The translations under genes and the position numbers were made by a program. Under the pieces are notes generated by a model that was not told the origin of the DNA, did no database searches, and worked only from the letters and a program-made list of their open reading frames with translations. From assembly GCF_000166335.1 (NCBI RefSeq), contig NC_014657.1:488501-552500 (forward strand): a stretch of 64,000 nt of DNA. The letters run 5' to 3'. Of the stretch, positions 36,967 through 59,320 are shown in pieces (position 1 is the first letter of the stretch; every line of letters starts with the position of its first letter). The DNA is from Caldicellulosiruptor owensensis OL. GTDB taxonomy: Bacteria > Bacillota > Thermoanaerobacteria > Caldicellulosiruptorales > Caldicellulosiruptoraceae.

Positions 36967-37091
36967 GAAAAATTTTTAACTTTTCATAAAGCAAAATGCT
37001 ATAAATATCAGGTCAAAAATTTAAAACAGATATGAAATTTTTTTAATTTTAAACTTCATATGTATAATGTATATTAATCTCATGAATTAAA

Positions 37092-37105
37092 TGATAACGA
37101 TTACA
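37092..37105 (+). promoter_or_regulatory. cre-like / LacI-family operator before the cellulase
   Basis: TGATAACGATTACA matches TGNAANCGNTNNCA except at one base. It lies directly upstream of the ribosome site and about 25 bases after a TATAAT (37063-37068), a good position for repression. Confidence 0.4.
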
Positions 37106-37123
37106 CAAGGAGGGACTCACATT

Positions 37124-38827
37124 ATGAAGAAAATTATTTTAAAATCATGTGTACTCCTTTTGATGGCTATTTTTACTATTTCTATATTACAGATTTTGAA
37201 TGTATTTGCTCAGAGTATGCCTTATGAAAAGGAAGAATATCCCCACCTTCTTGGTAACCAAGCGGTAAAAAAACCATCAGTTGCTGGCAGGCTCCAGATT
37301 ATTGAAAAGGACGGTAAAAAGTATTTAGCTGACCAGAAAGGCAAAATAATTCAGCTTCGTGGTATGAGTACGCATGGACTTCAGTGGTATGGTGATATTA
37401 TAAACAAAAATGCATTTGAGGCTCTTTCGAAAGATTGGGAGTGCAATGTTGTAAGGCTTGCGATGTATGTGGGCGAAGGTGGCTATGCTTCAAATCCAAA
37501 CCTTAAAGAAAAAGTTATAGAGGGGATTAAACTTGCAATTGAAAATGACATGTATGTGATTGTTGACTGGCATGTGTTAAATCCCGGCGACCCGAATGCT
37601 GAAATTTATAAAGGGGCAAAAGACTTTTTCAAGGAGATAGCTACAAGTTTTCCCAATGACTATCACATAATATATGAACTTTGTAATGAACCGAATTCAA
37701 ATGAGCCGGGAGTAGAAAATAGCTTGGATGGTTGGAAAAAGGTAAAGGCTTATGCGCAGTCCATCATAAAAATGCTCAGAAGCATGGGGAATCAGAACAT
37801 TATAATTGTAGGTTCGCCCAATTGGAGCCAGAGACCTGACTTTGCAATTCAAGACCCTATAAACGACAAAAATGTTATGTATTCAGTTCATTTTTATTCT
37901 GGTACTCACAAGGTTGATGGGTATGTTTTTGAAAACATGAAAAAGGCATTTGAAAATGGTGTGCCAATTTTTGTAAGTGAATGGGGAACAAGTTTGGCAA
38001 GCGGTGATGGTGGACCATATCTTGATGAGGCGGATAAGTGGCTTGAGTATTTAAATGCAAACTATATCAGCTGGGTGAACTGGTCACTGTCAAACAAAAA
38101 TGAAACATCAGCTGCTTTTGTCCCGTATATTAGTGGCATGCATGATGCCACATCACTTGATCCTGGCGATGATAAGATGTGGGATATAAAAGAGCTGAGT
38201 ATATCTGGAGAGTATGTTAGAGCAAGGATAAAAGGAGTGACATATGAGCCAGTAAGAAGAGATATAGGAATGAAATGCCCATTTAAGGATGTTAGTGAAG
38301 ACAATATTTTTTATGAACATGTAGTTAAGCTTTACTCCAAAGGAATTATAAAAGGGACTTCATCTTCCAAGTATTTGCCTGATAAAAACATTACAAGGGC
38401 TGAATTTGCTGCACTGTGTGTCAGGGCATTGAATCTGGAAATAGAAAAGTATGATGGAAGTTTTTCTGATGTAAAAAGTGACACCTGGTATTCGGATGTG
38501 GTTTATACGGCGTATAAAAACGGTTTGTTTGGACAGGAGAAAAATAGGTTCTTTCCTGAAAGGATTATGAAAAGAGAAGAAACAGCAGCTTTGGCAATTG
38601 AAGTGTACAAGAGATTGACAGGTAAAATAGAAGTTGACACAGATGATATTCAAATTGCCGATGAAGAGCTTATAGACCCTCAATACAGAGAAAGTGTGAA
38701 ATTAGCTGTTCAACTTGGTATTATTGACCTGGTTTCGGATGGTACCTTTGCGCCAGATAAAAGTGTTTCAAGAGGTGAGGCAGCAACAATTATGTATAAC
38801 ATATTAAACCTATCTGGTAAACTGTGA
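37124..38827 (+). CDS. S-layer-anchored GH5 endoglucanase
   Basis: 567 residues from ATG 37124, nine bases after AAGGAGGG. Signal peptide 1-30 (VFAQ/S). GH5 catalytic domain about 50-375: RGMSTHGLQWYG, VIVDWH, acid/base Glu189 in CNEP, HFYSGTH, nucleophile Glu286 in FVSEWGTS, and WVNWSLSNK. Three SLH modules follow (about 384-430, 446-492, 507-560; ITRAEFAALCVRAL, VSRGEAATIMYNIL), which hold the enzyme on the secondary cell-wall polymer. It therefore cuts beta-1,4-glucan at the cell surface. I recall a related S-layer GH5 cellulase from C. saccharolyticus that also has a CBM28; no binding module is visible between catalytic and SLH parts here. An ABC importer follows. Confidence 0.93.
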   Translation: MKKIILKSCVLLLMAIFTISILQILNVFAQSMPYEKEEYPHLLGNQAVKKPSVAGRLQIIEKDGKKYLADQKGKIIQLRGMSTHGLQWYGDIINKNAFEALSKDWECNVVRLAMYVGEGGYASNPNLKEKVIEGIKLAIENDMYVIVDWHVLNPGDPNAEIYKGAKDFFKEIATSFPNDYHIIYELCNEPNSNEPGVENSLDGWKKVKAYAQSIIKMLRSMGNQNIIIVGSPNWSQRPDFAIQDPINDKNVMYSVHFYSGTHKVDGYVFENMKKAFENGVPIFVSEWGTSLASGDGGPYLDEADKWLEYLNANYISWVNWSLSNKNETSAAFVPYISGMHDATSLDPGDDKMWDIKELSISGEYVRARIKGVTYEPVRRDIGMKCPFKDVSEDNIFYEHVVKLYSKGIIKGTSSSKYLPDKNITRAEFAALCVRALNLEIEKYDGSFSDVKSDTWYSDVVYTAYKNGLFGQEKNRFFPERIMKREETAALAIEVYKRLTGKIEVDTDDIQIADEELIDPQYRESVKLAVQLGIIDLVSDGTFAPDKSVSRGEAATIMYNILNLSGKL

Positions 38828-38911: not shown

Positions 38912-38969
38912 TGACAAAATATTGCACATTTTAATATCAACAATTCACAAAAAGACTGCAATTTTGTCA
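38912..38969 (+). repeat. Inverted repeat upstream of the first ABC promoter
   Basis: TGACAAAATATTGCA (38912-38926) and TGCAATTTTGTCA (38957-38969) are inverted copies with a two-base difference, 30 bases apart, ending just before the -35. Candidate activator or regulator site. Confidence 0.35.
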
Positions 38970-38976
38970 ATTCATT

Positions 38977-39004
38977 TTGAGAAAAATAGGATGTAAACTA
39001 TAAT
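38977..39004 (+). promoter_or_regulatory. Promoter of the first ABC transporter operon
   Basis: TTGAGA, 16 bases, TATAAT, about 70 bases before the first permease start. Confidence 0.6.
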
Positions 39005-39073
39005 CGAAAACCTCAAAAAAAAACTAAGTCAAAAGTTTCAATAAAAAACTTGAGAAAGGAGACGGCATCAAAA

Positions 39074-40015
39074 ATGGCAAACGGTCAGCGCACATATCGA
39101 AGCGAGTTTTTGAGAGAATTTAACAAGAACTTTCCTCTGTTTTTAATGGCACTGCCGGGGGTTGTTCTTTTGATAGCATTTTGTTACTTACCTCTGTTTG
39201 GACTTATCATTGCATTCAAAGATGTGCACTATGATGTGGGTATACTCAAAAGTCCGTGGGTGGGTCTGAAGAATTTTGAGTTTCTTTTCAAAACACCTGA
39301 TGCTTTTATTATTACAAGAAACACCCTTCTTTATAACTTTGCATTTATAGTCTTTGGGAACTTGGCGGCAATTGCAACGGCTATTGCGTTGAGTGAAATG
39401 AGAGCAAGATTTATGGCAAAGTTCTATCAGTCAGTAATGTTTTTACCATACTTTTTATCGTGGGTTGTTGTTGCATATATGGCATTTGCATTTTTAAGTA
39501 TAGACTTGGGGATTCTCAACACAATGATTCTTCCGAAGCTGGGCTTGCAGCCAATTGCCTGGTATTTTGAAACAAAACCGTGGCCTGTGATATTGATACT
39601 TGCAAATCTGTGGAAATATACAGGTTACAATGCAGTCATATATTTAGCAGCAATTACAGGAATTGACCCTGAATATTATGAAGCTGCTTTGATTGATGGT
39701 GCATCAAAATGGCAGCAGATTAAACACATAACAGTTCCGCTTTTATCCCCGCTTGTTGTTGTGCTTGTTCTTTTAGGTATTGGTAGAATCTTTTATGCAG
39801 ACTTTGGACTTTTTTATCAGCTTCCAATGAACAGCGGTGCTCTTTTTGATGTCACAAATGTTATTGACACTTATGTTTATAGGACTCTCATGGGCATGAA
39901 CGATATAGGAATGGCATCTGCCGCAAGCTTTTATCAATCAATAATGGGATTTATTCTGGTGCTCACATCCAATCTCATCGTTCGCAGACTTGACCCGGAA
40001 AAAGCACTGTTTTAA
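39074..40015 (+). CDS. CUT1 sugar ABC transporter permease (LplB-type)
   Basis: 313 residues from ATG 39074, after a GAAAGGAGA site; TTG 39050 is less likely. Six membrane helices. The ATPase-contact EAA loop reads YYEAALIDGASKWQQIKHITVPLL. N-terminal PLFLMALPGVVLLIAFCYLPLFG is typical of LplB/YteP-like permeases for oligosaccharides. Partner of the permease at 40047 and the binding protein at 41054. No ATPase gene is nearby, so a shared MsmK-type ATPase is expected. The substrate is not readable; the cellulase upstream suggests glucan oligosaccharides. Confidence 0.93.
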   Translation: MANGQRTYRSEFLREFNKNFPLFLMALPGVVLLIAFCYLPLFGLIIAFKDVHYDVGILKSPWVGLKNFEFLFKTPDAFIITRNTLLYNFAFIVFGNLAAIATAIALSEMRARFMAKFYQSVMFLPYFLSWVVVAYMAFAFLSIDLGILNTMILPKLGLQPIAWYFETKPWPVILILANLWKYTGYNAVIYLAAITGIDPEYYEAALIDGASKWQQIKHITVPLLSPLVVVLVLLGIGRIFYADFGLFYQLPMNSGALFDVTNVIDTYVYRTLMGMNDIGMASAASFYQSIMGFILVLTSNLIVRRLDPEKALF

Positions 40016-40046
40016 CAAATTTTGTGGGCGGGAAGGTGATTTAAAG

Positions 40047-40952
40047 ATGCATTCAAAAAGCAGGTTTTTGCAAATATCTATTGCAGCAGAGACGTTATTG
40101 CACATCATGTTTTGGATTATAACATTTGCATGTATAGTTCCGCTCTGGGCTGTTATATCAATTTCCCTTAGCGATGACAATAAGATAAGGCAAAGTGGAT
40201 ATAGATTATGGCCAGTTGGTTTGAGTACTAAGTCATATGAGTTTGTCTTATCGCAGGGTAAAGCTATATGGAATGCTTACGGTATTACCATATTTGTAAC
40301 AATTGTTGGCACACTTTTATGTGTACTTATTGTTTCATTGTATGCTTATGTTCTTTACAGGAAAGATTTTAAATACAGAAAACTATTTACATTTATAGGC
40401 TTTTTCACAATGCTAATCAATGCTGGACTTGTTCCATGGTATATAGTATGTGTAAATGTTCTTCACCTAAAAAATACAATATTTGCACTGATTTTACCTT
40501 ATGTAATGAATATGTGGTACGTATTGATTTTCAGGACATATCTTTCAATGTCTTTGCCCGACTCCATAATAGAATCAGCTAAAATTGATGGTGCAGGGGA
40601 GTTTACAACTTTTTTCAGAATTGTTATACCGCTTGTAAAACCTGGACTTGCAACAATTGCTCTGTTTGCAGCTATCACATACTGGAATGATTGGTGGCTT
40701 CCGTTCATGCTAATTGAAAATGAGAAACTTTATAACCTTCAATACATGATGTACAGAGTTCAACAAAAAATCCAGTATTTAGCAGAAATTGCGGGAAAAC
40801 TTGGGGCATCGGGTATTGTTCCTGCTGATTTGCCGACAGAGTCTGCGCGAATGGCAATGGCTGTTTTGGGTATGGGTCCTATAGTATTGGCTTATCCATT
40901 TTTCCAACGCTATTTTGTAAAAGGTCTTACTATTGGTGCTATTAAAGGGTGA
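40047..40952 (+). CDS. CUT1 sugar ABC transporter permease (YtcP/AraQ-type)
   Basis: 301 residues from ATG 40047, after GGAAGGTGAT. Six membrane helices. EAA loop: LPDSIIESAKIDGAGEFTTFFRIVIPLVKPG. The C-terminus RYFVKGLTIGAIKG is the standard ending of this permease type, shared with 58368. It forms the membrane pore with the permease at 39074. A stem-loop lies between this gene and the binding-protein gene. Confidence 0.93.
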   Translation: MHSKSRFLQISIAAETLLHIMFWIITFACIVPLWAVISISLSDDNKIRQSGYRLWPVGLSTKSYEFVLSQGKAIWNAYGITIFVTIVGTLLCVLIVSLYAYVLYRKDFKYRKLFTFIGFFTMLINAGLVPWYIVCVNVLHLKNTIFALILPYVMNMWYVLIFRTYLSMSLPDSIIESAKIDGAGEFTTFFRIVIPLVKPGLATIALFAAITYWNDWWLPFMLIENEKLYNLQYMMYRVQQKIQYLAEIAGKLGASGIVPADLPTESARMAMAVLGMGPIVLAYPFFQRYFVKGLTIGAIKG

Positions 40953-40974
40953 TATGAAGAGCTAATTAAACGGA

Positions 40975-41020
40975 TATAAGCTTCGCAGCTGCGATTCAAA
41001 TGCAGTATGTGAAGCTTATA
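40975..41020 (+). other. Stem-loop between permease and binding-protein genes
   Basis: tataagcttc pairs with gaagcttata, with a smaller stem inside; no T run follows. Such hairpins often protect the downstream part of a polycistronic RNA and raise binding-protein levels. Confidence 0.5.
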
Positions 41021-41053
41021 TACAAAAAAATAGATTTTAGGAGGTTGATTTGT

Positions 41054-42556
41054 GTGAAGCTCAAGAAATTTTTTGTAGTGATGCTTGTTGTGGCTTTTGT
41101 GCTCACAAGCGTAATTGGTGTTGTCACTGGGTTTGGTGCATCTTCTTCAAAGCTTCCTTATGTTAAGCTTACTTGGTATGTCATTGGAACTCCACAAAAA
41201 GACTGGGATTTAATCAATCAAAAGGTTAATGAGTACATCAAACCAAAGCTCAATGCTGAAATTAAAATGACAATGTTTGACTGGGGCGAGTACAATGATA
41301 AGCTCCAGACAAAGATTGCAGCAGGTGAGCCGTTTGACATCTGTTTTACTGCAATCTGGACAAACAACTACAGAACAAACGTGGCAAAAGGAGCATTCTT
41401 GCCACTCAACAAACCAGGAAATGACCTTCTTTCAAAGTATGCGCCAAAGACTAAAAAACTTCTTGGTGATGATTTTATAAATGGTGCGTCAATCAATGGC
41501 ATTTTATATGCAATTCCAGCAAACAAAGAAAAAGCTCATAACTGGGGATTCATTGTAAGAATGGATTTAGTAAAGAAGTATAAGTTAGATGATATGTTCA
41601 AGAAAGTCAAAAAGTTAGAAGATTTAGAGCCATATCTCAAGGTAATTAAACAAAAAGAGCCAGGTATATATCCGCTTGGAGCGTATGCTGGTGAGTCGCC
41701 AAGATTTCTTTTGGATTGGGATAAAGTTGTAGATGACGACGTTCCTGTTTCACTTTATCCAAATAATAACAGTACGAAAATTGTAAATGAGCTTGAACAG
41801 CCTAATACAAAAGCTCTCTTTAAGACAGTCAGAAAATATTACTTGGCAGGCTACATCAGAAAAGATGCATCAAGTGTAACAGACTGGATGTCTGATTTGA
41901 AAGCAGGTAAAGTTTTTGTAATGCCACAGTCTCTCAAGCCTGGCAAAGATGCTGAAATGTCAATTTCAACAGGATACCAGTGGAAACAGATAGATATAAC
42001 ACCACCTGTTATGTCAACAAGAGAATGTATTGGTTCAATGCAGGCAATCAATGCAAAATCTAAAAATCCAGAAAGAGCTTTGATGTTCCTTGAACTTTTC
42101 AATACAGACAAATATCTCAACAACCTTGTAAACTTTGGTATTGAAGGTCAACACTATGTATTTAAAGACAAAGCAAAAGGCATCATTGCTCCAGGACCAA
42201 AAGCAAAAGATTATAGCCCTGGTCTTGGTTGGATGTTCGGTAATCAGTTTATAAACTATATCTATGAAAATGAAGATCCAAACAAGTGGAAAAACTTTGA
42301 AGAGTATAACAAAAAAGCACTCCCACTTCTGAGCCTTGGATTCAATTTTGATGATTCAAAAGTGAAAACTCAAGTTGCAGCGTGCAAGAGCGTATGGAAG
42401 CAGTATATTCCAATGCTTGAGACCGGCAGTGTTGATCCTGATAAATATATTCCAGAAGCTATTGAAAAATTCAAACGAGCAGGTGTTGACATTATTATAA
42501 AAGAAGCGCAAAAGCAATATGATGATTTCCTGAAAAAAACAGGGAGAAAAAAGTAG
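41054..42556 (+). CDS. Extracellular sugar-binding protein of the first ABC system
   Basis: 500 residues from GTG 41054, directly after AGGAGGTTGAT. N-terminal signal (about 1-30, KKFFVVMLVVAFVLTSVIG) without a lipobox cysteine. The mature part is a large solute-binding protein: LTWYVIGTPQKDWDLINQKVNEYI, DICFTAIWTNNYRTNVAKGAF, NGILYAIPANKE. The family (LplA/YtcQ-like, DUF3502-type C-terminus) binds oligosaccharides. It delivers ligand to the permeases at 39074 and 40047. How it stays at the cell is unclear, since no lipid anchor is seen. Confidence 0.92.
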   Translation: MKLKKFFVVMLVVAFVLTSVIGVVTGFGASSSKLPYVKLTWYVIGTPQKDWDLINQKVNEYIKPKLNAEIKMTMFDWGEYNDKLQTKIAAGEPFDICFTAIWTNNYRTNVAKGAFLPLNKPGNDLLSKYAPKTKKLLGDDFINGASINGILYAIPANKEKAHNWGFIVRMDLVKKYKLDDMFKKVKKLEDLEPYLKVIKQKEPGIYPLGAYAGESPRFLLDWDKVVDDDVPVSLYPNNNSTKIVNELEQPNTKALFKTVRKYYLAGYIRKDASSVTDWMSDLKAGKVFVMPQSLKPGKDAEMSISTGYQWKQIDITPPVMSTRECIGSMQAINAKSKNPERALMFLELFNTDKYLNNLVNFGIEGQHYVFKDKAKGIIAPGPKAKDYSPGLGWMFGNQFINYIYENEDPNKWKNFEEYNKKALPLLSLGFNFDDSKVKTQVAACKSVWKQYIPMLETGSVDPDKYIPEAIEKFKRAGVDIIIKEAQKQYDDFLKKTGRKK

Positions 42557-42573
42557 TTAAATAAAAAGGGTTT

Positions 42574-42619
42574 AAACGGGATACTTGATGCTCTGTTTTA
42601 GAGCATTGGTATCCCGTTT
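42574..42619 (+). terminator. Nested hairpin after the first binding-protein gene
   Basis: aaacgggatac / gtatcccgttt encloses a second stem atgctct / agagcat. Only a weak T run follows, so it may end or protect the transcript. Confidence 0.5.
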
Positions 42620-42709
42620 GTTACTAATATGTGAAAAATGTCTTGTGAGTTAATCTCGATATAAGATAAAATAAAGATAAAAATTTTTATGCTTTAAGGA
42701 TACAGGGTT

Positions 42710-44059
42710 GTGATTTTTATGAAAGATACATTCAATAGAAAACATATATTATCAATAGGTTTTTTTGTACCTCTTGTGGCTACTCTTGTCCTTATAATTG
42801 TATTCATTTTGAATACACAAAAAACAGTAGAAGAAAATATAATTATTGAAAATAAGGAATTAGAGGTTAACACAAAAATAAGATTTTTAAGCTCGTGGGG
42901 TGGAAGCGATCCTTATGCTGATACGCTTTCGTTTGTATTGCAAAAGTTTCAAGAGGAAAATCCTGGTGTAACCATTATAAATGAATCCTTGTTTGGTGAT
43001 GATTTTCTGATAAAACTTCAGACAGACTTTGCATCTGGTAATCCACCAGATGTTTTTGGTCTTTTTCCGGGTTCTGTTCGAGATATTCTAATACAAAGGA
43101 ATCAAATAGCCAATTTAACAGAAACATTAAAAAAAGATATAAAATGGTATAACAGTTTTTATAAAAATATGTGGAAGTATGTAACTTTCAATGGAAAGAT
43201 TTATGGTGTTCCACTTGAAACAATAGTTGAATGTCTTTTTGTAAATAAAGATCTCTTTGAAAAGTACAATTTACAGGTTCCACAAACTTATGACGAACTT
43301 ATTAAGATATGTAAAATATTAAAAAGCAAAGGTATAATCCCAATAGCCTTCAATGCCCAGCCAGAGGGAACATATATATATCAAAACATTATTGTGTCAA
43401 TTGGAACAAAGTATGATATCGAAAATCCGCTCAAGAGAGGAAGGTTTACTTCACCTTACATAAAAGCCCTTGACTATTTAAAAGAACTTTACAATGCAGG
43501 CGCATTTCCAGATAATTACTATTCACTTACAAGTAAACAACGAAATGATTTGTTTTTGACAAAGAAAGCGGCAATGATTGTTCAGGGTTCATGGTTTATT
43601 CCAAAGTGTGACCCCCGGACAGTTGATATATATTTTTTTCCACAGATAAACAGTACAGTGAAAAAACATTTAATTTATGGTCTTGGTGGAGGGACGTTTT
43701 ATATCAGCAATCAAGCATGGCAAGATAACTCAAAAAGAACCTGGGCAATAAAACTTTTAAAATATTTGACCTCTGAAAAAATTGCAAGAATATTTGTTGA
43801 AAGAACGGGGCTAATTTCAAATGTAAAGATAAATAACCCTCCCAATGTCAAAAATCCTTTGCGTTCAAAGGTAGAAGGACTGATAAAATTGGCCGATGAA
43901 CTTATTGCACCTCCTGACCATTTTGTTGACAGAATGGTTTGGGAAGAAGTTATAACTAAAAATATACCTTATTATCTGCAAGGTAAAATTTCTTCAGGAT
44001 TATTTTGGGAAAAAGCGCTCAAAGTATGGGAAGAGAATAAGAAGAAACTGGGTGAATGA
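42710..44059 (+). CDS. Membrane-anchored sugar-binding protein, probable sensor component
   Basis: 449 residues from GTG 42710 (aagga nine bases upstream; ATG 42719 is possible). An N-terminal membrane helix (about 14-35) with no lipobox, then a COG1653-type solute-binding fold: DTLSFVLQKFQEENPGVTIINES, FASGNPPDVFGLFPGS, NGKIYGVPLETIVECLFVNKDLFEKY, and the late MIVQGSWFIPKCD. It is not next to permeases. It overlaps the kinase gene by four bases (ATGA). The most likely job is to present a sugar signal to that kinase, as in the XylFII-LytS-YesN xylose system of Clostridium. The ligand is unknown. Confidence 0.85.
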   Translation: MIFMKDTFNRKHILSIGFFVPLVATLVLIIVFILNTQKTVEENIIIENKELEVNTKIRFLSSWGGSDPYADTLSFVLQKFQEENPGVTIINESLFGDDFLIKLQTDFASGNPPDVFGLFPGSVRDILIQRNQIANLTETLKKDIKWYNSFYKNMWKYVTFNGKIYGVPLETIVECLFVNKDLFEKYNLQVPQTYDELIKICKILKSKGIIPIAFNAQPEGTYIYQNIIVSIGTKYDIENPLKRGRFTSPYIKALDYLKELYNAGAFPDNYYSLTSKQRNDLFLTKKAAMIVQGSWFIPKCDPRTVDIYFFPQINSTVKKHLIYGLGGGTFYISNQAWQDNSKRTWAIKLLKYLTSEKIARIFVERTGLISNVKINNPPNVKNPLRSKVEGLIKLADELIAPPDHFVDRMVWEEVITKNIPYYLQGKISSGLFWEKALKVWEENKKKLGE

Positions 44060-45927
44060 GAATGTTTAAAGTAAAGATGATTTTTAGAAACATAATAAAG
44101 TATTATCGTACTATTTCCATAGATAAGAAGTTTTTGGCAGTTTCATACATTCAAATATTTATTCCAATAATTCTCATTGGAGTTTTAAGCTTTAGAATTT
44201 CGTCAGATTTAATATTCAAAAAATATATTGGCTATACCTCTGATGTTATAAAAACAGCACGGATGCGAATTGTTGATAAGATAAATGAACTCAATAGCAT
44301 CACTCAGGATATCTTATATCAAACAGAGCTCTACAATGTATTGGACAAATCAATGAAAAATATGGATTATTACGATGACATTGTTTTGCTTACAAATAAT
44401 TTTCGAAAAATAATTTTAGGACATTTAGATGTACAGTCAATAGGAGTATTTACAGAAGAGAAAAAACTTTGTATAGTTGATAACACTTCGAAAGAAATAG
44501 GTCTTGATGAAATAATACCAGCTCAAATTTCTTTTGAAAAAATATATGATATAGCTTCAAAAGGAACTGGAAAGCCAGTTTGGTATGTAACTTTACTGAA
44601 AAAAGAAAAGGAAAGTAAAGTAGTAGTTTTGATAGTAAGATGTATTAACAATCCCCAAACGTTAAAACTTGAAGGAGTTTTAGCTGTTATGATAAATACT
44701 GAGCTTTTTAGCAACACATTTTCTGAACTTGTTGCAGAAAAAAGTCAGGCAATTGCAATAGTAGGCAATGATATGTTTATTTCAACAAAAGGTAATATGA
44801 ATAAAGAAAAAATCTTTAAGCTTATCTCTGATGTAAAAAATAAAAATGGAGTTGTTACATATACTTCTAATGAATATATTGTAAATATTCTACCAATAAA
44901 ACAGTTAGACTGGTATATAGTGACCTCTATTCCAGTTAAGGTATTGTTCAAAGATATAGACAAACTCAGGATGTGGCTTATAATTTTATGTTTTTTATCA
45001 TTTGTGATAACATCAGCAATGTCATTGATACTTTCAACAGATTTCTTAAAACCAATTAATGCTATTGTAGAAGCAACAAAAAAGATCAAAAAAGGAGAAT
45101 ACAAAACGATAGAAAATCTTGACAGAAAAGATGAACTTGGTATTTTGATTGATAATTTTAACAGTATGGTGGTAAAAATAAATCATTTAATAAATTCAAT
45201 TTACAAAGAACAGATAACACGAAAAGAGGCAGAACTGAAAGTTTTACAAACTCAGCTAAATCCTCACTTTTTATTTAACATTTTAGAATCGATTAACTGG
45301 CTTGCACAGTTAAATGGTGTGTCTCAGATAAGCAATGTTGTGATTGCACTTTCAAAACTTTTGGAGGTGAATCTGAAAGAAGAAAAGTTCTTAACTTTAG
45401 AGGAAGAAATAAAGTACATAACTTCTTATGTTTCAATTTTGAAGATTAACTTTGGTGAAGAGAACTTAAAACTGGAAGTAGATGTAGATAAAAAAGCTCT
45501 AAAATTTAGGCTTCCTAAACTTCTTTTGCAGCCTCTTGTAGAAAATTCAATTTTTCATGGCATACGTCCAAGAGGTTTTGGCAAGATATTTGTAGGTGGT
45601 TATATTTGGAACGATAAGCTTGTTCTGATTGTGAAAGACGATGGTATTGGAATGACACCTGAAAAATTAAAGGGAATACGTCAAGATTTAGAGGATAGCA
45701 GTAAGATTCCCTTTGAACCTGAGGAAAGATCTCATACAAGAATAGGGCTTGTAAATGTCTTAAAGAGACTAAAGCTTATCTATGGTGACGATGCTAGCTT
45801 TTTAATTGAAAGCCTGCCACAGAAAGGTACTACTATAAAGATTGAGATTTTAATAGATGCACTTTCAAGAGCAATAGAAGAAAATTTGGAAGAATTATTA
45901 GATGAAGGAGAAGAGGGAGATGTATAA
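44056..45927 (+). CDS. Sensor histidine kinase, LytS/YesM type
   Basis: 623 residues. Membrane helix at about 29-47, a large outside sensor region of Cache type (about 50-300), a second helix at about 306-328, HAMP, then the HisKA_7-type His site LQTQLNPHFLFNILESINWL with His404, and the ATPase (LLLQPLVENSIFHG, DDGIGM, RIGLVNVLKRL). It starts inside the stop of the binding-protein gene and overlaps the response regulator by eight bases. It probably senses sugar through the binding protein and phosphorylates the AraC-type regulator at 45920. Confidence 0.93.
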   Translation: MRMFKVKMIFRNIIKYYRTISIDKKFLAVSYIQIFIPIILIGVLSFRISSDLIFKKYIGYTSDVIKTARMRIVDKINELNSITQDILYQTELYNVLDKSMKNMDYYDDIVLLTNNFRKIILGHLDVQSIGVFTEEKKLCIVDNTSKEIGLDEIIPAQISFEKIYDIASKGTGKPVWYVTLLKKEKESKVVVLIVRCINNPQTLKLEGVLAVMINTELFSNTFSELVAEKSQAIAIVGNDMFISTKGNMNKEKIFKLISDVKNKNGVVTYTSNEYIVNILPIKQLDWYIVTSIPVKVLFKDIDKLRMWLIILCFLSFVITSAMSLILSTDFLKPINAIVEATKKIKKGEYKTIENLDRKDELGILIDNFNSMVVKINHLINSIYKEQITRKEAELKVLQTQLNPHFLFNILESINWLAQLNGVSQISNVVIALSKLLEVNLKEEKFLTLEEEIKYITSYVSILKINFGEENLKLEVDVDKKALKFRLPKLLLQPLVENSIFHGIRPRGFGKIFVGGYIWNDKLVLIVKDDGIGMTPEKLKGIRQDLEDSSKIPFEPEERSHTRIGLVNVLKRLKLIYGDDASFLIESLPQKGTTIKIEILIDALSRAIEENLEELLDEGEEGDV

Positions 45928-47560
45928 AATTGTAATAGTTGACGATGACATGCTTATTCGAAAAGGAATTAGAAACGTGATAAGATGGAAAGATTTAGAG
46001 TGTGAAATTTGTGCTGAAGCTTCAAGCGGAGATGAGGCTTTAAAAGTGATTGAAGAGGTAAAACCTGATATTGTTATTACTGATATAAAAATGCCCAATA
46101 TGGATGGTATTGAACTTATTGACAGGATTAAAAGGATTATTCCCCAATGTAAGATTGTTATTTTGACAGCTTACAGGGAATTTGAATACGCCCAGAGAGC
46201 CATAAAAATTGGTGCCTTTGATTTTCTTTTAAAACCGACCAAGGTAGAAGATATAATAAATGTTATAAGAAAAGCCATAAACGAGATAAAAAAAGAAAAG
46301 ACAATTGTCGAAGAGCTGGACAAGATAAATAAGATTTTAAAAGAAAAACTTCCTGTATTAAGAGAAAATTTTTTGTTCAATGTCATATTTGAGATGATTC
46401 CAAATGAAGATGAAATTTTACAGATGGCTTCACTTTATGAAATTGAGATTAGAAGCTTTTTAATGATTTTGGCTGAATGCACTACCAGAGAAGAAAAAGG
46501 AAAACATAATACTCATTTATATCTTTTGGGGCTATCAAATATGCTAAATGATTTTTTGAACCACAATTACACTATTTATAGTATTTATTTGAATAATTCT
46601 CAAGCAGTATATATTATAAACTCAAAAAAAGAGGTTGAAAAAAAGGATGAGAAGGAGTTATTTGAGCTTTTGAATCAGCTAAAGAAAGCAGCAGTGGAAT
46701 GCTTTAATATTGATTTGACATTAGTAGTCAGTACATGGGGTAATGGGATTGTCCAGCTTCCGGAAAAATATAAAGAGTGTATAGATGCGATAAATTACAG
46801 ATTTTACTTTGATGAAGAAGATATCATTTATTACAAAGATCTTTCCCACTTTTTTATGTATATGGATGATAGAAAGTTAAAAAATCTAAAAAATGAAATT
46901 TTGTTAAGTGTAAGATATGGAAATTTTACAAACATAAATAAGCTTTTGCTTGAACTTGAGGAGACTTTGAAAAAATCAAAAACAGATAAACAGTATATTT
47001 TAAACTTTTACTATCTTCTGCTCATAGAAGTAAATATGATAAAAGCTCAACTTTCCTCTGCAATAAATACATCTAATAATTCAGAGGTGTTTGAAAATAT
47101 TGATTATCTTAACGAAATTACAAGATGCAAAAATTTATCAGAACTAAGTAATATTTTAAGAACATCTATCCAGCGGACAATTGAAGAAGTTCAAAATCAC
47201 AACCTAAACAAGATGGGCAGTTTAGTAAAAAAGGTGATAGAATACATAAAGGAAAACTATCATTTAAACGATATTTCACTCAGTGACATTTCGGAAAAAT
47301 TTTTTGTAAGTCCTTCTTATTTGAGTAGGCTATTTAAGAAAGAGACAGGAAAAAACCTTTCTGACTTTATAAATGAGTATAGAATAGAAAAGGCAAAGCA
47401 GCTTTTAATTACAACCGATCTTAAAACATACGAGGTTGCGGACAGGGTTGGTATTCCAGACCCGCATTACTTTTCAAGGCTTTTTAAACGCTACACTGGC
47501 TACAGCCCTTCTGAATACAAAGAAGGTGCAAAACTAAAAGGCGAAAAAGTAAGCGATTAA
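45920..47560 (+). CDS. AraC-type response regulator (YesN-like)
   Basis: 546 residues from ATG 45920, after AAGGAGAAGAGGG; 45902 would lie on that site. N-terminal receiver with Asp55 (VITDIKMPNMDG) and LLKPTK, a long helical middle part (about 130-440), and a C-terminal AraC helix-turn-helix pair (about 440-538: LSDISEKFFVSPSYLSRLFKKE, YEVADRVGIPDPHYFSRLF). Activated by the kinase just upstream. Likely targets are the nearby ABC operon; the inverted repeat at 38912 is a candidate site. Confidence 0.94.
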   Translation: MYKIVIVDDDMLIRKGIRNVIRWKDLECEICAEASSGDEALKVIEEVKPDIVITDIKMPNMDGIELIDRIKRIIPQCKIVILTAYREFEYAQRAIKIGAFDFLLKPTKVEDIINVIRKAINEIKKEKTIVEELDKINKILKEKLPVLRENFLFNVIFEMIPNEDEILQMASLYEIEIRSFLMILAECTTREEKGKHNTHLYLLGLSNMLNDFLNHNYTIYSIYLNNSQAVYIINSKKEVEKKDEKELFELLNQLKKAAVECFNIDLTLVVSTWGNGIVQLPEKYKECIDAINYRFYFDEEDIIYYKDLSHFFMYMDDRKLKNLKNEILLSVRYGNFTNINKLLLELEETLKKSKTDKQYILNFYYLLLIEVNMIKAQLSSAINTSNNSEVFENIDYLNEITRCKNLSELSNILRTSIQRTIEEVQNHNLNKMGSLVKKVIEYIKENYHLNDISLSDISEKFFVSPSYLSRLFKKETGKNLSDFINEYRIEKAKQLLITTDLKTYEVADRVGIPDPHYFSRLFKRYTGYSPSEYKEGAKLKGEKVSD

Positions 47561-50830: not shown

Positions 50831-52537
50831 TTAATATTCTATTGAAGGGGCTGTCCAAAAACAATAATTTTTAATAACCAGAATCAACCATTTGATGGCA
50901 TTAAATGTTAATATTGAACTATGCAGTAAAAAGCAAGAGGGTTGGCTGGCAATTTTGCCCCAACCCTCTATTATTATCTTTGCTAACCTTTCTATGTTAT
51001 AGGCAATACAAACCAAACCCCACTCAAGCTTCACACCCTTCAAGCCCCTGAGCAGGAACCTCCTAAATCCCTTATTATTCTTTATTAACCCAAATACCGT
51101 CTCAACCTCTATCTTCCTTCTGCTGTAAATCTCTTTGCCCTCTTCGCTCAAAAGCCTTTCTCTTACTTCATTCTTTAACTTCTCCAATCTTGGCCTTATC
51201 CTAAATCTCTTCTTCCATCTCTTGCCTCTGTAACACTTATCTCTGTACTCACATCCATTACATACTTCCTCACATTGATATATCTTCTCCCAACTTACAA
51301 ATCCCCTCTCATTTACATCTATCCTCGGATATAAGTATTTTACCTTCTTACCAGCAGGACAAATATATACATCTTCAGAGGCAATATACTCCCAATTCCT
51401 GCTATTGAACTTGTCCTTCTTAAATTTCCTTGTCTGTTCCAAATCAAATGTGTTATACTTAATGTAGCTATTGATGCCACATTTTTTCAGATGAAGGTAG
51501 TTTTCTTCAGACCCATAGCCACTGTCTGCTATGACATTCTTAGGCATGTGGCCTGTTATCTTCTCCACAAGCTCAAGATGTTCTTTTAAACAGACAGTGT
51601 CTGTGGGACTCTGATGGATGCTAAAACCTATGACAAATCGATTCTGTGTGCCGATTTGTACATTATACCCGGGTTTTAGCATCCCGTTTTTCATATGGTC
51701 ATCCTTCATCCTCATAAATGTGGCATCATGGTCTGTTTTTGAAAAGCTATTTCTACCACTTAAGATCTGCTCATAAGACTCATATTTCTTGAGTCTTAAT
51801 ATGCAGTCATTTTGGAGAGTTTTTACAAGTTTTTTCACTCTCCTTTCTTTTCTTTTGCTCCCAAAGCTAGCTTCTGCTAGCTTTTGGGAGAGTTCTTCAA
51901 CTTTTTGTTCAAGCTCTTGGCTATCATAATCAGCTTCTAAATTGACATCCAACTCGCCAAGAGTTCTGTCTTCTTCCTCGTTTATCCTTTCTATTTCATC
52001 AAGGATGTTTTTTACTTTTTCTCTTAATTTCCTTTTGTATGTTCTTGTGCTTTTTGCCCATACAAACGTATACTTGTTCGCGTTTGCCTCAATCTTTGTT
52101 CCGTCAAGATAGTAATACTCAAAGTTTACATACCCCAGTTTTACAAGAAGTTCAATAACTTCTGCAAAAATTTCTTCAATGCAATCACCTATTATTTCTT
52201 TTCTGAATCTATTGATAGTTCTGAAATCAGGGGTTTGAAGTTTTGAAAGCCACATAAAGGTTATATTCTCTTGAAGCGCCTTTGCTATCTTTCTTGAAGA
52301 GTATATACCCTGTATGTAAGCATAGATAAGAACTTTCAAAAGCATCAAAGGATGGTAGCTGGAAGTCCCACCACCTTTGTATTTTTCTATTATGGTTGAG
52401 ATATCTATTTTATCAACGATTTTATCGATTGCTCTTACCAGATGAGTTTGAGGGATAAAGGCTTCAGGGTCGATTGGCATTATTAATTGGTTGGGGTTGT
52501 ATTCTTTAAAGACGATTTTATCATGTTTGCGGGGCAT
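50831..52537 (-). CDS. IS1182-family transposase
   Basis: 568 residues from an ATG behind AAGGAGG. DDE-type transposase: first Asp in YYLDGTKIEANANKY, second in VIADSGYGSEENY, Glu in RRKIEVETVFGLIKNNKG. A cysteine cluster (CEEVCNGCEYRDKC) before the last motif is common in the family. The frame does not stop inside the element: it runs through the left terminal repeat and ends four residues into flanking DNA (SIEY). The second copy at 61890 has a different tail. This copy looks complete and may be active. Confidence 0.95.
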   Translation of the reverse strand: MPRKHDKIVFKEYNPNQLIMPIDPEAFIPQTHLVRAIDKIVDKIDISTIIEKYKGGGTSSYHPLMLLKVLIYAYIQGIYSSRKIAKALQENITFMWLSKLQTPDFRTINRFRKEIIGDCIEEIFAEVIELLVKLGYVNFEYYYLDGTKIEANANKYTFVWAKSTRTYKRKLREKVKNILDEIERINEEEDRTLGELDVNLEADYDSQELEQKVEELSQKLAEASFGSKRKERRVKKLVKTLQNDCILRLKKYESYEQILSGRNSFSKTDHDATFMRMKDDHMKNGMLKPGYNVQIGTQNRFVIGFSIHQSPTDTVCLKEHLELVEKITGHMPKNVIADSGYGSEENYLHLKKCGINSYIKYNTFDLEQTRKFKKDKFNSRNWEYIASEDVYICPAGKKVKYLYPRIDVNERGFVSWEKIYQCEEVCNGCEYRDKCYRGKRWKKRFRIRPRLEKLKNEVRERLLSEEGKEIYSRRKIEVETVFGLIKNNKGFRRFLLRGLKGVKLEWGLVCIAYNIERLAKIIIEGWGKIASQPSCFLLHSSILTFNAIKWLILVIKNYCFWTAPSIEY

Positions 52538-53857: not shown

Positions 53858-55420
53858 ATGTTAAAGCTTTTGATTGTAGAAGATGAGAAAATAACACGAG
53901 AAAGTCTTGAAACATTGATACCATGGAATGAGCTTGGAATTGGAGAAATTAAGAGTGCTAAAAATGGTCAGGAAGCATTGGAGACTGTAAAAAATTATAT
54001 TCCCGATATTTTACTGTGCGATGTAAGAATGCCACGGATGGATGGCATTGAATTTTCAAAGAGGTTAAAAAATATTTTTCCAAAATGTAAAATAGTCTTT
54101 ATAAGTGGCTATGCAGAAAAGGAGTATCTTTTGTCAGCTATACGTTTGAATGCAATTGACTACATCGAAAAGCCTCTCGATATAGAAAAGATTAAGAGCA
54201 CAATGAAAAAAGTTGTGGAGATTATAGAGTTTGAGAGAAAAGAAGAGGAAGAAAAAGAAAGGCTGAAAGAACATTACAATGAGAGTATATATTACGCTGC
54301 TACACAGCTTGTTCAGCAGCTGCTAAAAGACCACACAGATTATAGCGTTTTCCAAAAGTATGCTGCCGAAGATTTTTTAACCTCAACATTAGATGTTATT
54401 GTAGGATTTGTAGACTGGAAGGCTGAAGAGGACCATCTGGATGAAATGGTATCAAAAGAAATATATGACCAAGTTTTGGGTCAAGACCTTACATCAAGAA
54501 TTGCTGTGTTATTTTCGTTTTTATCACAGAACAGTTTTGTTCTTATTTGCAGCGAAAAAAGTGAGATTGACATAAACAAGGCAGCGAATATACTAAAAGA
54601 GGTTTTTTTACAAAAAGGAGAGATTTGCCTGATGGTTGCTACCTCGATAAAGGCAAGTCAAGTAAAAGAGAGCATTGGAAACATGCTCAAGATACTCAAG
54701 AAAAATGTATTTTATAATGGTTTTGGCAATTCGTATACATATGAAGGTTTTGTAGACAAAAGAGAACAGGAAATTAGTTTTGACTTTGAAAAATTTGAGG
54801 AATATCTAAAATGGGATGATATAAAGAGGGCCAAGGAAGAGATAGAAAAGCTGTATTTTTGGCTTAAGTCAAATCAAGGCATTGAGATTGAAAAGGTAAA
54901 AAATATATTTTTTGAGATGCTCTTGATTGCATACCAAGTAGGGAGACAAAGAAAAATAACACAGCTTTTAGATGAAGCTGGGAGAGCAAAAAAATGGAGC
55001 GAAATAGAACAAAAGCTTACTTTAAACCAGCTAAAAGAGGTTATTTATGAGACGCTTGATGGAATATTTGAGTTATTTACAACACGTGGCAATTTAAATC
55101 GAAAGGTGTATCAGATAATGAGGTTTATTGAAGAAAACTTCTATGACAAGCATCTGAGTGTTCAAAAGATAGCTAACCATTTTTATTTCAGTCCAAATTA
55201 TTTGTGCAGTATGTTCAAAAAAGCAACTGGTAAGACACTCAACGATTACATAACTGAGGTCAGAATTGAAAAAGCCAAGCAGCTTCTAAAAGATAATAGC
55301 ATCAAGCTATATGAGATTGCAGAGAGAGTTGGATTTGGAGACCCGAATTATTTCTCAGCCTTGTTCAAAAAGAAAGTTGGGATGACTCCATCTGAGTTTA
55401 GAGAGAGGTATTATGTATGA
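53858..55420 (+). CDS. AraC-type response regulator of the second sugar locus
   Basis: 520 residues, ATG behind GGGAGGAAAG. Receiver with Asp55 (LLCDVRMPRMDG) and YIEKPLD, a coiled-coil middle part, and a C-terminal AraC pair (about 420-515: VQKIANHFYFSPNYLCSMFKKA, YEIAERVGFGDPNYFSALFKKK). It overlaps the kinase gene by four bases (ATGA). It probably activates the ABC operon at 57421, where two direct repeats lie just upstream of the promoter. Confidence 0.94.
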   Translation: MLKLLIVEDEKITRESLETLIPWNELGIGEIKSAKNGQEALETVKNYIPDILLCDVRMPRMDGIEFSKRLKNIFPKCKIVFISGYAEKEYLLSAIRLNAIDYIEKPLDIEKIKSTMKKVVEIIEFERKEEEEKERLKEHYNESIYYAATQLVQQLLKDHTDYSVFQKYAAEDFLTSTLDVIVGFVDWKAEEDHLDEMVSKEIYDQVLGQDLTSRIAVLFSFLSQNSFVLICSEKSEIDINKAANILKEVFLQKGEICLMVATSIKASQVKESIGNMLKILKKNVFYNGFGNSYTYEGFVDKREQEISFDFEKFEEYLKWDDIKRAKEEIEKLYFWLKSNQGIEIEKVKNIFFEMLLIAYQVGRQRKITQLLDEAGRAKKWSEIEQKLTLNQLKEVIYETLDGIFELFTTRGNLNRKVYQIMRFIEENFYDKHLSVQKIANHFYFSPNYLCSMFKKATGKTLNDYITEVRIEKAKQLLKDNSIKLYEIAERVGFGDPNYFSALFKKKVGMTPSEFRERYYV

Positions 55421-57201
55421 AAAGAGTTGCAAATATTTTTTCGAATATGAGTATAAAATACAAATTGTTTGCATCATATATGTTTGTGATTTTGATATCA
55501 TTTGGCATATTTTCTTTTATGAACTACGTTATTGTTGGAAGGGATGTCGAAAAACAGGCTATTTATTCTTCTGGCAAGATTGTGGACCAGACAGCTTCTT
55601 TCTTAGAAAACAGGGTGTCATCAGTTAAAAATGTACTGAACGTTTTAGCTCTTGATTCAACTGTGCAAGAACTTGTAAACAGGCCGGATGACTACTACTA
55701 CGAAAATATCGGTAACTGGCTTGTAGACTCTCAGAGATTTACAAAACTTTTTTACAGCACATGCCAGAATTTTGACATACTCAGCATCTCAATTTATATG
55801 ACACAGGGATTGGCAAGACTTAGCGAAACAGATAGCTATTTTCTCTTTGAGCGGATTGAAAAGCTTCCATGGTATCAGCAGATGGTTTTAAAAGGAGAGC
55901 TTTTTGCTTGGGTTACTTCCAAAATGCTAAATGTTGCGCGAAAAGATGTTGTGTCTTTGATAAGACTGATTCCAGACCCTAAGAATATTAGTGAATACAA
56001 AGCTGCGCTCAGAGCTGATATTTCAATTGCTGAAATTGAAAGAATTCTAAATCAGGCTTTGTTTACAAGTAGAACACTTGCTTTTATTGTCAACTCAAAT
56101 GGTGAAGTAGTTGCACGTTCTTTAAATAAGACAAACTTATACCTTGGAGAAATAATAAAAGGGATAGAAAAGAATATATCATCTCAAGAGGCAAATGTTG
56201 TTGAGATGGAGGTAGGGGGAGAGAAACTTCTTGTTCGAACAAGGAATATTAACGATACAGATTGGTATCTTGTACTGATTACACCTTATAAAGAGATTCA
56301 TGAGCTTAATATAAAGACTATTAAACAGGTCTTTTTCATGATATTCTTGATTGCACCTTTTACATTGATATTTGCTTTCTGGGCGGCAACATCAAGCACA
56401 TCAAGAATAAAAAGGCTTACTCATAATATGAAAAAGATTATTGAAAAAGGTGATTTCAATATAGAATTGGATACACACTCTCAAGATGAGGTAGGTCAGC
56501 TAATATATACCTTCAACTATATGCTAAAGAAGATAAAAGAACTTTTGCATGAGCAGTACCAGCTTGGCAAGGAGAAGAAAAATTTGGAACTCAAAGCTCT
56601 TCAGTCACAGATAAATCCTCATTTTCTGTACAACACCCTTGACCTTATAAACTGGATTGCAATTAAGAACAAAAATGAAGATATTTCAAGGCTTGTAACC
56701 TCTCTTTCTCAGTTTTATAAATTAAGTCTTAGCAAGGGTGAGGATGTTGTAACAGTAGAAAATGAGATAGAACATGTGAAGGCGTATGTGATGATTCAAA
56801 ATTACAGGTTTGACAACTGCATTGACCTTAAGATAGATGTTCCACAAAAACTTCTACAAGCGCGGATACCAAAACTGACACTTCAGCCGCTTGTTGAAAA
56901 TTCTATTCACCATGGAATTTTGGAAAAAGAGGATCAGAAAGGTACTATAATCATAAAAGGTGAAATTATAGATGGCAAGATGGCTGCAATATATGTAATT
57001 GATGATGGTGTTGGAATCTCTAAAGAGGTCCTTGAAAAAATAAAAAAGGGAGAGGTTGAGACTACAAGAGGACATGGTTTTGGTATAAAGAATATAAACG
57101 AGAGATTGAAAATCTATTTTGGAAATGAAGCTGGACTGTTTTACGAGAGCAAAATAAACGAGAAAACAGTTGCAAAAGTCCTGTTTCCTGTGGAAGAATA
57201 G
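55417..57201 (+). CDS. Sensor histidine kinase of the second sugar locus, YesM type
   Basis: 594 residues. Membrane helices at about 14-36 and 305-327 enclose an extracellular Cache-like sensor; HAMP follows. The His site is LKALQSQINPHFLYNTLDLI with His402, and the ATPase has LTLQPLVENSIHHG, IDDGVGIS and GHGFGIKNINERL. It pairs with the regulator just upstream. Unlike the kinase at 44056, no separate binding-protein gene precedes it, so it may read sugar through the ABC binding protein at 59321 or directly. Confidence 0.93.
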   Translation: MKRVANIFSNMSIKYKLFASYMFVILISFGIFSFMNYVIVGRDVEKQAIYSSGKIVDQTASFLENRVSSVKNVLNVLALDSTVQELVNRPDDYYYENIGNWLVDSQRFTKLFYSTCQNFDILSISIYMTQGLARLSETDSYFLFERIEKLPWYQQMVLKGELFAWVTSKMLNVARKDVVSLIRLIPDPKNISEYKAALRADISIAEIERILNQALFTSRTLAFIVNSNGEVVARSLNKTNLYLGEIIKGIEKNISSQEANVVEMEVGGEKLLVRTRNINDTDWYLVLITPYKEIHELNIKTIKQVFFMIFLIAPFTLIFAFWAATSSTSRIKRLTHNMKKIIEKGDFNIELDTHSQDEVGQLIYTFNYMLKKIKELLHEQYQLGKEKKNLELKALQSQINPHFLYNTLDLINWIAIKNKNEDISRLVTSLSQFYKLSLSKGEDVVTVENEIEHVKAYVMIQNYRFDNCIDLKIDVPQKLLQARIPKLTLQPLVENSIHHGILEKEDQKGTIIIKGEIIDGKMAAIYVIDDGVGISKEVLEKIKKGEVETTRGHGFGIKNINERLKIYFGNEAGLFYESKINEKTVAKVLFPVEE

Positions 57202-57249
57202 CCACAGCAGCCTTATAATTTTTTCCTTGCAATGCTTAAAAAGATAGGG

Positions 57250-57282
57250 GAGCTGGTTTTGAAAGGCCAGCTTCTATTTTTT
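57250..57282 (+). terminator. Terminator after the kinase gene
   Basis: agctgg / ccagct stem with flanking pairs and a T run. Confidence 0.75.
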
Positions 57283-57298
57283 TGCAATTTTTATCATC

Positions 57299-57326
57299 TT
57301 AATTTTACAAAGAAAATATTAATTTT
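57299..57326 (+). repeat. Direct repeats upstream of the second ABC promoter
   Basis: TTAATTTT at 57299-57306 and 57319-57326, 20 bases apart, about two DNA turns. They end shortly before the expected -35 of a promoter with TATAAT at 57355-57360 but no good -35, the usual layout for AraC-type activation. Confidence 0.35.
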
Positions 57327-57420
57327 GTCTGATATAAATTTTTAACTGACCTTTTATAATAAGAAGTAGAAGAAGCGAGAATAAATGATTTGTTCAATCA
57401 CTACAAAAGGAGTGGCTGAA

Positions 57421-58341
57421 TTGAAAAAGAATGGTTTTTGGTATGAAATAAAAAAGAACAAGATACTTTATGCCATGTTCTTACCAGTGGCAATTTACTA
57501 CATTCTGTTTGCCTACATACCAATGGGTGGAATTGTTCTTGCTTTTAAAGAGTTTAACTATCGAGATGGAATACTTTTCAGTCCATGGAACGGCTTCAAA
57601 AACTTTGAGTATTTCTTTGCTTCGGGCAGAGCTTGGCTTGTCACAAAAAATACTATTCTTTACAACTTAGCCTTTTTGGCTGCATACACAGTATTTTCGG
57701 TCGCATGTGCAATTTTTATAGCCGAGCTTGCAGGTAAGATATTTAAAAAGTTCATTCAGTCTGTCATGTTTTTACCGTATTTTGTATCATGGGTTGTTGT
57801 GGCAGCTATGATGTATAACTTTTTCAACTATGATTATGGTCTTATTAACACCTTGATAAAAAACCTTGGTGGTGAGCCAATAGATATCTACTCAAATCCT
57901 ACTTACTGGTATTTCCTTTTGCCAATGTTATATGTATGGAAATGGGTAGGTTACGGAAGCGTTTTATATCTTGCAGCTATAATGGGATTTGACGAAGAGT
58001 GTTATGAGGCAGCAATAATTGATGGCGCAAATATCTTCCAAAGAATTTTTTATATCACAATCCCGATGTTAAAACCGACAATGATAATATTGATTTTGCT
58101 TGCACTTGGAAGAATTTTGCGTGGCGAGTTTGATATGTTTTATCAGATAATAGGTAATAACGGTCTTCTTCTTGACTATACAGATATTATCGATACCCTT
58201 GTGTTCAGAAGCCTTATGCAGGTACAGGATATTGGGATGGCGTCAGCAGCAGGTGCTTACCAGTCTGTGCTGTGCTTTGTAATTATAATGCTTGTCAACT
58301 GGCTTGTCAGAAGATATGACAAAGACTATGCACTGTTTTAA
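57421..58341 (+). CDS. CUT1 sugar ABC transporter permease (LplB-type), second system
   Basis: 306 residues from TTG 57421, eight bases after AAAGGAG. Six membrane helices; EAA loop CYEAAIIDGANIFQRIFYITIP. N-terminal MFLPVAIYYILFAYIPMGG matches the permease at 39074 in type. First gene of permease-permease-binding protein, again without an ATPase gene. The galactanase fragment downstream suggests galacto-oligosaccharides as cargo, an inference. Confidence 0.93.
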   Translation: MKKNGFWYEIKKNKILYAMFLPVAIYYILFAYIPMGGIVLAFKEFNYRDGILFSPWNGFKNFEYFFASGRAWLVTKNTILYNLAFLAAYTVFSVACAIFIAELAGKIFKKFIQSVMFLPYFVSWVVVAAMMYNFFNYDYGLINTLIKNLGGEPIDIYSNPTYWYFLLPMLYVWKWVGYGSVLYLAAIMGFDEECYEAAIIDGANIFQRIFYITIPMLKPTMIILILLALGRILRGEFDMFYQIIGNNGLLLDYTDIIDTLVFRSLMQVQDIGMASAAGAYQSVLCFVIIMLVNWLVRRYDKDYALF

Positions 58342-58367
58342 ATCTTGACTAAAAAGGGGAGAGAACA

Positions 58368-59246: not shown

Positions 59247-59251
59247 AAATG

Positions 59252-59286
59252 GTATCAACAGGTGCTTTTTGTAATGCCTGTTGGTA
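59252..59286 (+). other. Stem-loop between second-system permease and binding-protein genes
   Basis: tatcaacagg pairs with cctgttggta (one G-U), with a 13-base loop and no T run. Same position as the hairpin at 40975 in the first system. Confidence 0.5.
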
Positions 59287-59320
59287 TAGATTAAAATGAA
59301 TCAGGGAGGTTGATTGTGTG

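Follow-up and report, generated by a model that had tools for sequence, protein, structure and literature searches.

Analysis of a 64,000-nucleotide stretch of the Caldicellulosiruptor owensensis OL genome (the 'window'; part of a 2,428,903-base, single-contig genome from the genus Anaerocellum/Caldicellulosiruptor) indicated that three consecutive genes, encoding a sugar-binding protein, a YesM-type histidine kinase and a YesN/AraC response regulator, with high probability constitute a three-component cellobiose sensor of the CuaDSR type, in which the binding protein acts as the sensor subunit and not as a transport subunit. The host is a plant-eating bacterium of hot springs, and digestion of cellulose yields chiefly cellobiose. 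It further appears likely that the corresponding protein of Anaerocellum bescii, Athe_0598, takes no part in transport and instead senses cellobiose, tethered by a helix and bound to the AviS kinase, and that the genes represent a widespread clostridial cassette that has kept its sugar pocket while changing its importer and switching between lipid and helix anchors.

The gene calls and Pfam matches bear out the same-strand, overlapping string of binding protein, kinase and regulator that had been described in a sequence-only reading of the window (Table 1). The binding-protein and kinase genes overlap by 4 bp (an ATGA at 44056), and the kinase and regulator genes by 8 bp (45920-45927). SBP_bac_1 (8.4e-32) and SBP_bac_8 are the sole family matches of the binding protein, which received no name above cut-offs from NCBIfam; the kinase matches His_kinase (1.3e-22), HAMP and HATPase_c, with dCache_1 below threshold, and the regulator matches Response_reg (3.3e-31) and HTH_18 (7e-22). 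The binding-protein gene stands as first read, but its start is most likely the ATG at 42719 and not the proposed GTG at 42710, because in loci L080 and L085 these two codons fall in different reading frames. Similarly, 45920 is the most likely start of the regulator, and an earlier one less likely, because the reading frame in L080 stops short of it. Inspection of the sequences located His404 with N and G boxes in the kinase, and Asp55 in the regulator, which we take to be the catalytic and acceptor residues. The phospho-acceptor reported for CuaR is likewise D55 (PMC10384115). The first reading was also right that the gene string lacks a permease of its own; those at 39050 and 39990 have a separate, DUF3502-type binding protein at 41000.

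Table 1. Positions of the sensor genes, the neighbouring operon and the intervening sequence elements within the window
Feature	Position	Strand	Description
GH5 endoglucanase with S-layer domains	37091..38827	+	celD/Athe_0594 position; possible second target, upstream site weak
Tandem direct repeat (TGCA..TCAA boxes)	38915..38980	+	aligned in 12/12 genus loci; likely operator
Transporter-operon promoter-like site	38977..39004	+	TTGAGA-16-TATAAT; 11/12 matches; abuts tandem repeat
Likely target operon	39050..42556	+	CUT1 permeases 39050-40015 and 39990-40952; DUF3502 binding protein 41000-42556 (ortholog of Athe_0597)
Hairpin, likely terminator	42577..42621	+	between transporter and sensor operons; poor T-run
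Sensor-operon promoter-like site	42643..42672	+	TTGTGA-18-TAAAAT; 9/12 matches
Sensor binding protein	42719..44059	+	446 aa; helix-anchored; family 1 SBP; ortholog of Athe_0598; predicted ligand cellobiose
YesM-type histidine kinase	44056..45927	+	623 aa; dCache-like extracytoplasmic sensor domain 44194-44961; His404
YesN/AraC response regulator	45920..47560	+	546 aa; phospho-acceptor Asp55

Elsewhere in the window, a second YesN-YesM pair is followed by two permeases and a 529-aa frame (53858-60907), with no extra binding protein beside the kinase; this set is an ordinary two-component system plus importer, in contrast to that at 42719-47560. Between a xylose isomerase and the second pair lies a 568-aa frame (50831-52537) that appeared transposase-like by eye, and an identical 26-base string at 50900 and 61943 suggests a second, shorter transposase copy at about 61691-62554.

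The identity of the probable ligand was approached through the ortholog. The binding protein of A. bescii, Athe_0598, was found to bind cellobiose but neither glucose nor G3-G5, and 14 cellobiose contact residues were named from docking (PMC12838199). All 14 are identical in the window (W63, D67, Y69, F119, P120, E170, I172, E174, Y222, W295, L325, P401, D403 and H404, numbered from 42710) and, by alignment, in 12 of 12 genus genomes; in genome G002, which we infer to be that of A. bescii, they lie at a constant offset of 2 residues. The protein from the window is 83% identical to its counterpart in G002, a value of 83.6% was published for the A. owensensis homolog of Athe_0598 (PMC12838199), and the two are, judged by their sequences, orthologs. 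Because the ortholog binds cellobiose and the contact residues are identical, the ligand of the 42719 protein is very probably cellobiose, and a GH94 phosphorylase gene situated after the cassette in three distant loci (L008, L009 and L034) fits this assignment. The 38 distant rows retain most of the contacts: E170 and P120 occur in every row, W63, E174 and W295 in 37 and D403 in 36; Y69, F119 and H404 differ between the genus and most distant rows, with position 69 mostly lysine and position 119 always tryptophan. By structure, the protein most resembles solved proteins that bind oligosaccharides of chitin or xylan (7ehp, Z 44.1, rmsd 2.6 over 383; 4g68, Z 43.2). The reported affinity of Athe_0598 for cellobiose (2.84 uM, with an ITC stoichiometry of 2.13) is about 12 times weaker than that of the transport protein Athe_0597 (0.228 uM; PMC12838199), an order opposite to that of CuaD, at 20 nM, and CuaA (PMC10384115).

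Anchoring of the binding protein to the membrane, as first proposed, is supported by the N-terminus: there is no cysteine within residues 1-60 and no lipobox, and the AlphaFold2 model (pLDDT 90.2; numbered from 42710) places a helix at 10-41 and a floppy, low-confidence stretch at 39-51 ahead of the binding fold, which together support a tether at the outer membrane face by one uncleaved helix. The helix anchor is present in all 12 genus proteins. A simple rule sorted 49 rows into 22 with a lipobox, 22 with a helix, 3 unclear and 2 truncated (genus, 12/12 helix), and correction by eye assigned L028 to the lipobox forms and L019 and L038 to the helix forms; the 37 distant rows (L040, with its split gene, being omitted) thus comprise, partly by eye, about 23 lipobox, 12 helix and 2 truncated forms. 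Since most helix forms fall in one weakly supported half of the tree (61/85), and the other half also contains L011, L019 and L043, the type of anchor probably changed more than once. No published description of YesM kinases with helix-anchored binding proteins was noticed in a term-limited literature search.

The kinase contains, as judged by eye, a single outer domain flanked by two hydrophobic stretches. In the model of that domain (256 residues, pLDDT 87.1), a helix of 40 residues is accompanied by a pair of cap helices and a pair of sheet domains, and its Foldseek matches in the PDB are largely dCache-type sensor domains; one match, 8w7p, likewise comes from the outer part of a kinase and has a similar fold. 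A sequence search of the PDB with the outer domain alone returned nothing useful, and a profile search returned one weak dCache match (7k5n, 0.0027).

The association of the binding protein with the kinase was then compared across relatives, using a scan of species genomes that yielded 38 loci outside the genus, all from Bacillota by title or tree label. The kinase lies next to the binding protein in all 37 loci with room (the contig of the 38th ends), and the order of binding protein, kinase and regulator is kept in all 34 with room for both. The importer is far more variable: among 29 loci with 7 kb of room, 21 have the DUF3502 transporter immediately after the cassette; it precedes the cassette in L016, the arrangement of the window, lies two genes off in L043, and is set apart by one extra gene in L022; L010 and L036 carry a different SBP_bac_1 binding protein with permeases and GH94; and in L029, L031 and L035 no importer adjoins the cassette, in that no phmmer match over threshold was found beside it (L031 has a permease-like frame 5.7 kb downstream that is cut by the locus end, and L035 has nearby genes of 463, 466 and 419 aa without assigned identity). 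Among 30 loci with any upstream gene, the sensor gene adjoins the transporter's binding protein, as it does in the window, only in L016. The 42719-type protein therefore does not travel with permeases, but stays beside the kinase while the type and presence of the importer vary.

One of these loci provides a bridge to the cua system. L036, from Ruminiclostridium papyrosolvens, carries the cassette in the same order, followed by a binding protein, two permeases and GH94; its kinase (627 aa) and regulator (538 aa) have the published lengths of CuaS and CuaR, and its gene order also matches cua. Its binding protein aligns with that of the window, and homology of the cassette to a cua cluster is thereby traced through R. 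papyrosolvens. L036 falls in a clade (100/100) with L028, L032 and L042, which carry the DUF3502 transporter. Similarly sized upstream genes are present in L029, L031, L032 and L036, and some of them in L042 (those of L031 encode UvrA, a PhoU-like protein, a phosphate permease and a Clp ATPase), so that, at a seemingly shared chromosomal position, the cassette is accompanied by different importers or by no importer. More distant relatives of the sensor-type protein were also encountered: L041:479-985 holds a xylose-isomerase-like piece upstream of one (33% identity) at a contig end, and in three genus genomes (L057-L059) a relative of 33-34% identity, a transport-type cousin of the sensor protein, precedes a permease, and a YesN-like gene lies on the opposite strand.

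The pace of divergence offers a further view of the same association. Within the genus, mean identity to the window is 81.2% for the sensor protein and 78.2% for the kinase outer domain, and 96.8% and 95.0% for the transporter's binding protein and first permease. A genus-only correlation was discarded since everything correlates there (r 0.76 to 0.99), and partial correlation was applied instead to the 23 loci, out of 40, in which all six genes are present. The divergence of the sensor protein correlates best with that of the kinase outer domain (r 0.894; partial 0.715, with regulator divergence taken out) and less with that of the transporter's binding protein (r 0.744; partial 0.567), and dropping any single locus leaves the gap at 0.106-0.181. 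For the transporter's binding protein, the highest correlations are with its permeases (0.84 and 0.87), but that with the kinase outer domain is also high (0.81). The sensor protein thus seems to diverge in step with the kinase outer domain more than with the transporter's binding protein, which lends support to contact between the two without being proof of it; correlated divergence may also reflect a shared pace.

A hairpin, a promoter-like site and a tandem repeat lie between or before the sensor and importer operons. The hairpin (42568-42632; -30.5 kcal/mol, z -7.5) has a strong counterpart in 11 of 12 genus loci. A terminator scan of the window did not list the element, and, as a good T-run is missing, it is graded as no more than a likely terminator. 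The remaining locus, L087, has other sequence at this position, with about 1.6 kb extra between the transporter binding protein and the sensor gene (L087:6137-7746), perhaps an insertion. The TAAAAT of the sensor-operon site is kept in all 12 genus loci; the promoter scan gave 64 sites against 49.7 expected, and a 9/12 match is weak alone.

The tandem repeat is likely the operator of the regulator within the genus, and its position against a promoter match of 11/12 is the layout expected for an activator. A 66-base matrix built from 9 distinct genus sites was used to score the 300 bases that precede the permease gene in those 28 of the 38 distant loci that had a usable permease: the mean was -23.6, against -29.3 for single-base shuffles, and the permease upstream region scored above the sensor upstream region in 15 of 28 (the L013 control was unscorable). 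The matrix thus fails to carry over to distant loci, and the operator is therefore claimed for the genus only. With a part-matrix of 46 bases, the best site upstream of the GH5 gene, at 37011, ranks 15 among about 128,000 positions, but it scores poorly with the two half-site matrices (ranks 188 and 123) and is suggestive, at most, of a second target. Rodionov et al. predicted that AviRS controls celD and aviABC, naming these alone in their table, and these genes respond to cellulose and cellobiose and also to xylan (PMC8579813); a separate report gives an induction of over 10-fold for locus 0594-0598, which would include 0598 (PMC12838199).

These observations are consistent with the following mechanism. 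The helix-tethered binding protein would close upon cellobiose, as suggested by the published binding of its ortholog and the identical contacts, while resting on the kinase's dCache-like outer domain, an arrangement that is proposed by analogy with CuaD-CuaS, the one pair for which it has been demonstrated. Closure would alter the kinase and lead to phosphorylation of Asp55 of the regulator, as the intact catalytic residues would allow, and the regulator would then bind the tandem repeat and activate the two permease genes together with that of the importer's binding protein, and possibly the GH5 cellulase gene as well.

In the published assignment, the protein is a second, cellobiose-specific transport subunit of an AviABCD importer (PMC8579813, 'AviABCD'; PMC12838199), which would make the kinase and regulator an ordinary two-component system. 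The position of the gene between transporter and kinase throughout the genus, and the loss of growth on cellulose upon deletion of 0595-0598, agree with it; that deletion, however, removed both binding proteins together (PMC12838199), and cannot therefore separate transport from sensing. The comparative evidence speaks against transport with the neighbouring permeases (39074/40047 in the sequence-only reading) and renders the assignment distinctly improbable: in distant loci the gene remains at the kinase even where the transporter lies elsewhere, is of another type or is missing, the L016 arrangement is the single counterpart of that in the window, a transporter, where adjacent, comes with a binding protein of its own, the conserved hairpin and the retained TAAAAT intervene between gene and transporter operon, and an ATGA overlap joins the gene to the kinase. 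The protein might instead do both, feeding the permeases and reporting to the kinase as the Vibrio chitobiose-binding protein does; such dual use is known from the Vibrio chitin and Bordetella citrate systems (PMC10384115), and the gene does adjoin an importer. This appears very unlikely, given that the transporter already possesses a binding protein of broader range, that an uncleaved helix anchor would restrict, though not forbid, shuttling, and that the Cua importer was found to be served by CuaA and not CuaD, with CuaA failing to bind CuaS (PMC10384115).

A three-component sensor might also respond to another beta-1,4 disaccharide, such as mannobiose, xylobiose or a mixed glucan disaccharide. 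Oligosaccharides of chitin and xylan are the ligands of the best solved relatives, aviABC and celD respond to xylan as well, and three contacts (Y69, F119 and H404) differ in most distant rows; the selectivity of Athe_0598 for cellobiose over glucose and G3-G5 (PMC12838199) and the presence of all 14 contacts in the window nonetheless make another ligand unlikely. Against the cellobiose-sensor reading itself stand the weaker binding of Athe_0598 relative to Athe_0597 (the reverse of Cua) together with its ITC stoichiometry, the induction stated for the whole of 0594-0598, and the failure of the operator matrix in distant loci.

The new elements are the kept contacts, the linkage to the kinase as opposed to a variable transporter, the correlated divergence, the anchor types and the operator repeat, and their added value lies in comparative grounds for reassigning Athe_0598 from the transporter to the sensor. 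If that reading is true, the 0595-0598 deletion mixes loss of the importer with loss of part of a sensor. The helix-anchored form would be a fixed receptor, bearing on whether free diffusion of the binding protein matters, and cellobiose sensing in hot-spring cellulose degraders bears on their use for biofuels.

Several known systems invite comparison. The sequence-only reading had likened the genes to XylFII-LytS-YesN, and had regarded a CUT1-type binding protein as their distinguishing twist. The XylFII binding protein is of the CUT2-like xylose type. The system of Clostridium beijerinckii shares a binding protein, a LytS/YesM-family kinase, a YesN regulator and a division of sensing and transport between two binding proteins, but the LytS sensor is a four-helix bundle (PMC9769921). 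A sensor of that type was rejected here, as the modelled outer domain is mixed helix and sheet and dCache-like, and so was membership, given also the SBP_bac_1/SBP_bac_8 family of the binding protein. Nor is the CUT1 type a new twist, since CuaDSR already uses a family-1 protein (PMC10384115, PMC5663094). LevQRST of Streptococcus mutans also employs a transmembrane-anchored binding protein for signalling only, but differs in its pair of binding proteins, in its kinase, with as many as five membrane helices, and in its ligands, fructose/mannose (PMC3043104); membership was rejected on the single binding protein of the string and the single outer domain and two hydrophobic stretches of the kinase. 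NagB1 of Paenibacillus sp. FPU-7 provides the closest solved fold (7ehp, assigned to it from the chain name), is encoded beside a two-component pair, and accompanies an importer with a second binding protein; it differs in binding chitin di- and trisaccharides and in its lipid anchor (PMC8233162).

The same locus in A. bescii, Athe_0598 with AviRS, has been published as a transporter subunit (PMC12838199, PMC8579813), 'AviD' being our reading of the name AviABCD. A CuaD-like role for Athe_0598 'remains possible' according to a remark in one of these reports, the main text of which contains no word beginning 'kinase', 'sensor' or 'Athe_0599' (PMC12838199). CuaDSR of Ruminiclostridium cellulolyticum (PMC10384115, PMC5663094) is the better match, and its likeness in gene order, together with the kept contacts and the kinase linkage, upholds the view of the three genes as a sensor. 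It differs in that CuaD is a lipoprotein, that the importer is of another type, that cuaDSR lies upstream and not downstream of its target, that a GH94 gene adjoins it, and that the affinities of sensor and transport protein are reversed relative to the A. bescii orthologs; it shares a family-1 binding protein, kinase and YesN/AraC regulator in the same order, cellobiose as ligand, a kinase whose outer domain combines a long helix and cap helices with a pair of sheets, the regulator Asp55, and, as its target, a cellodextrin importer with its own binding protein.
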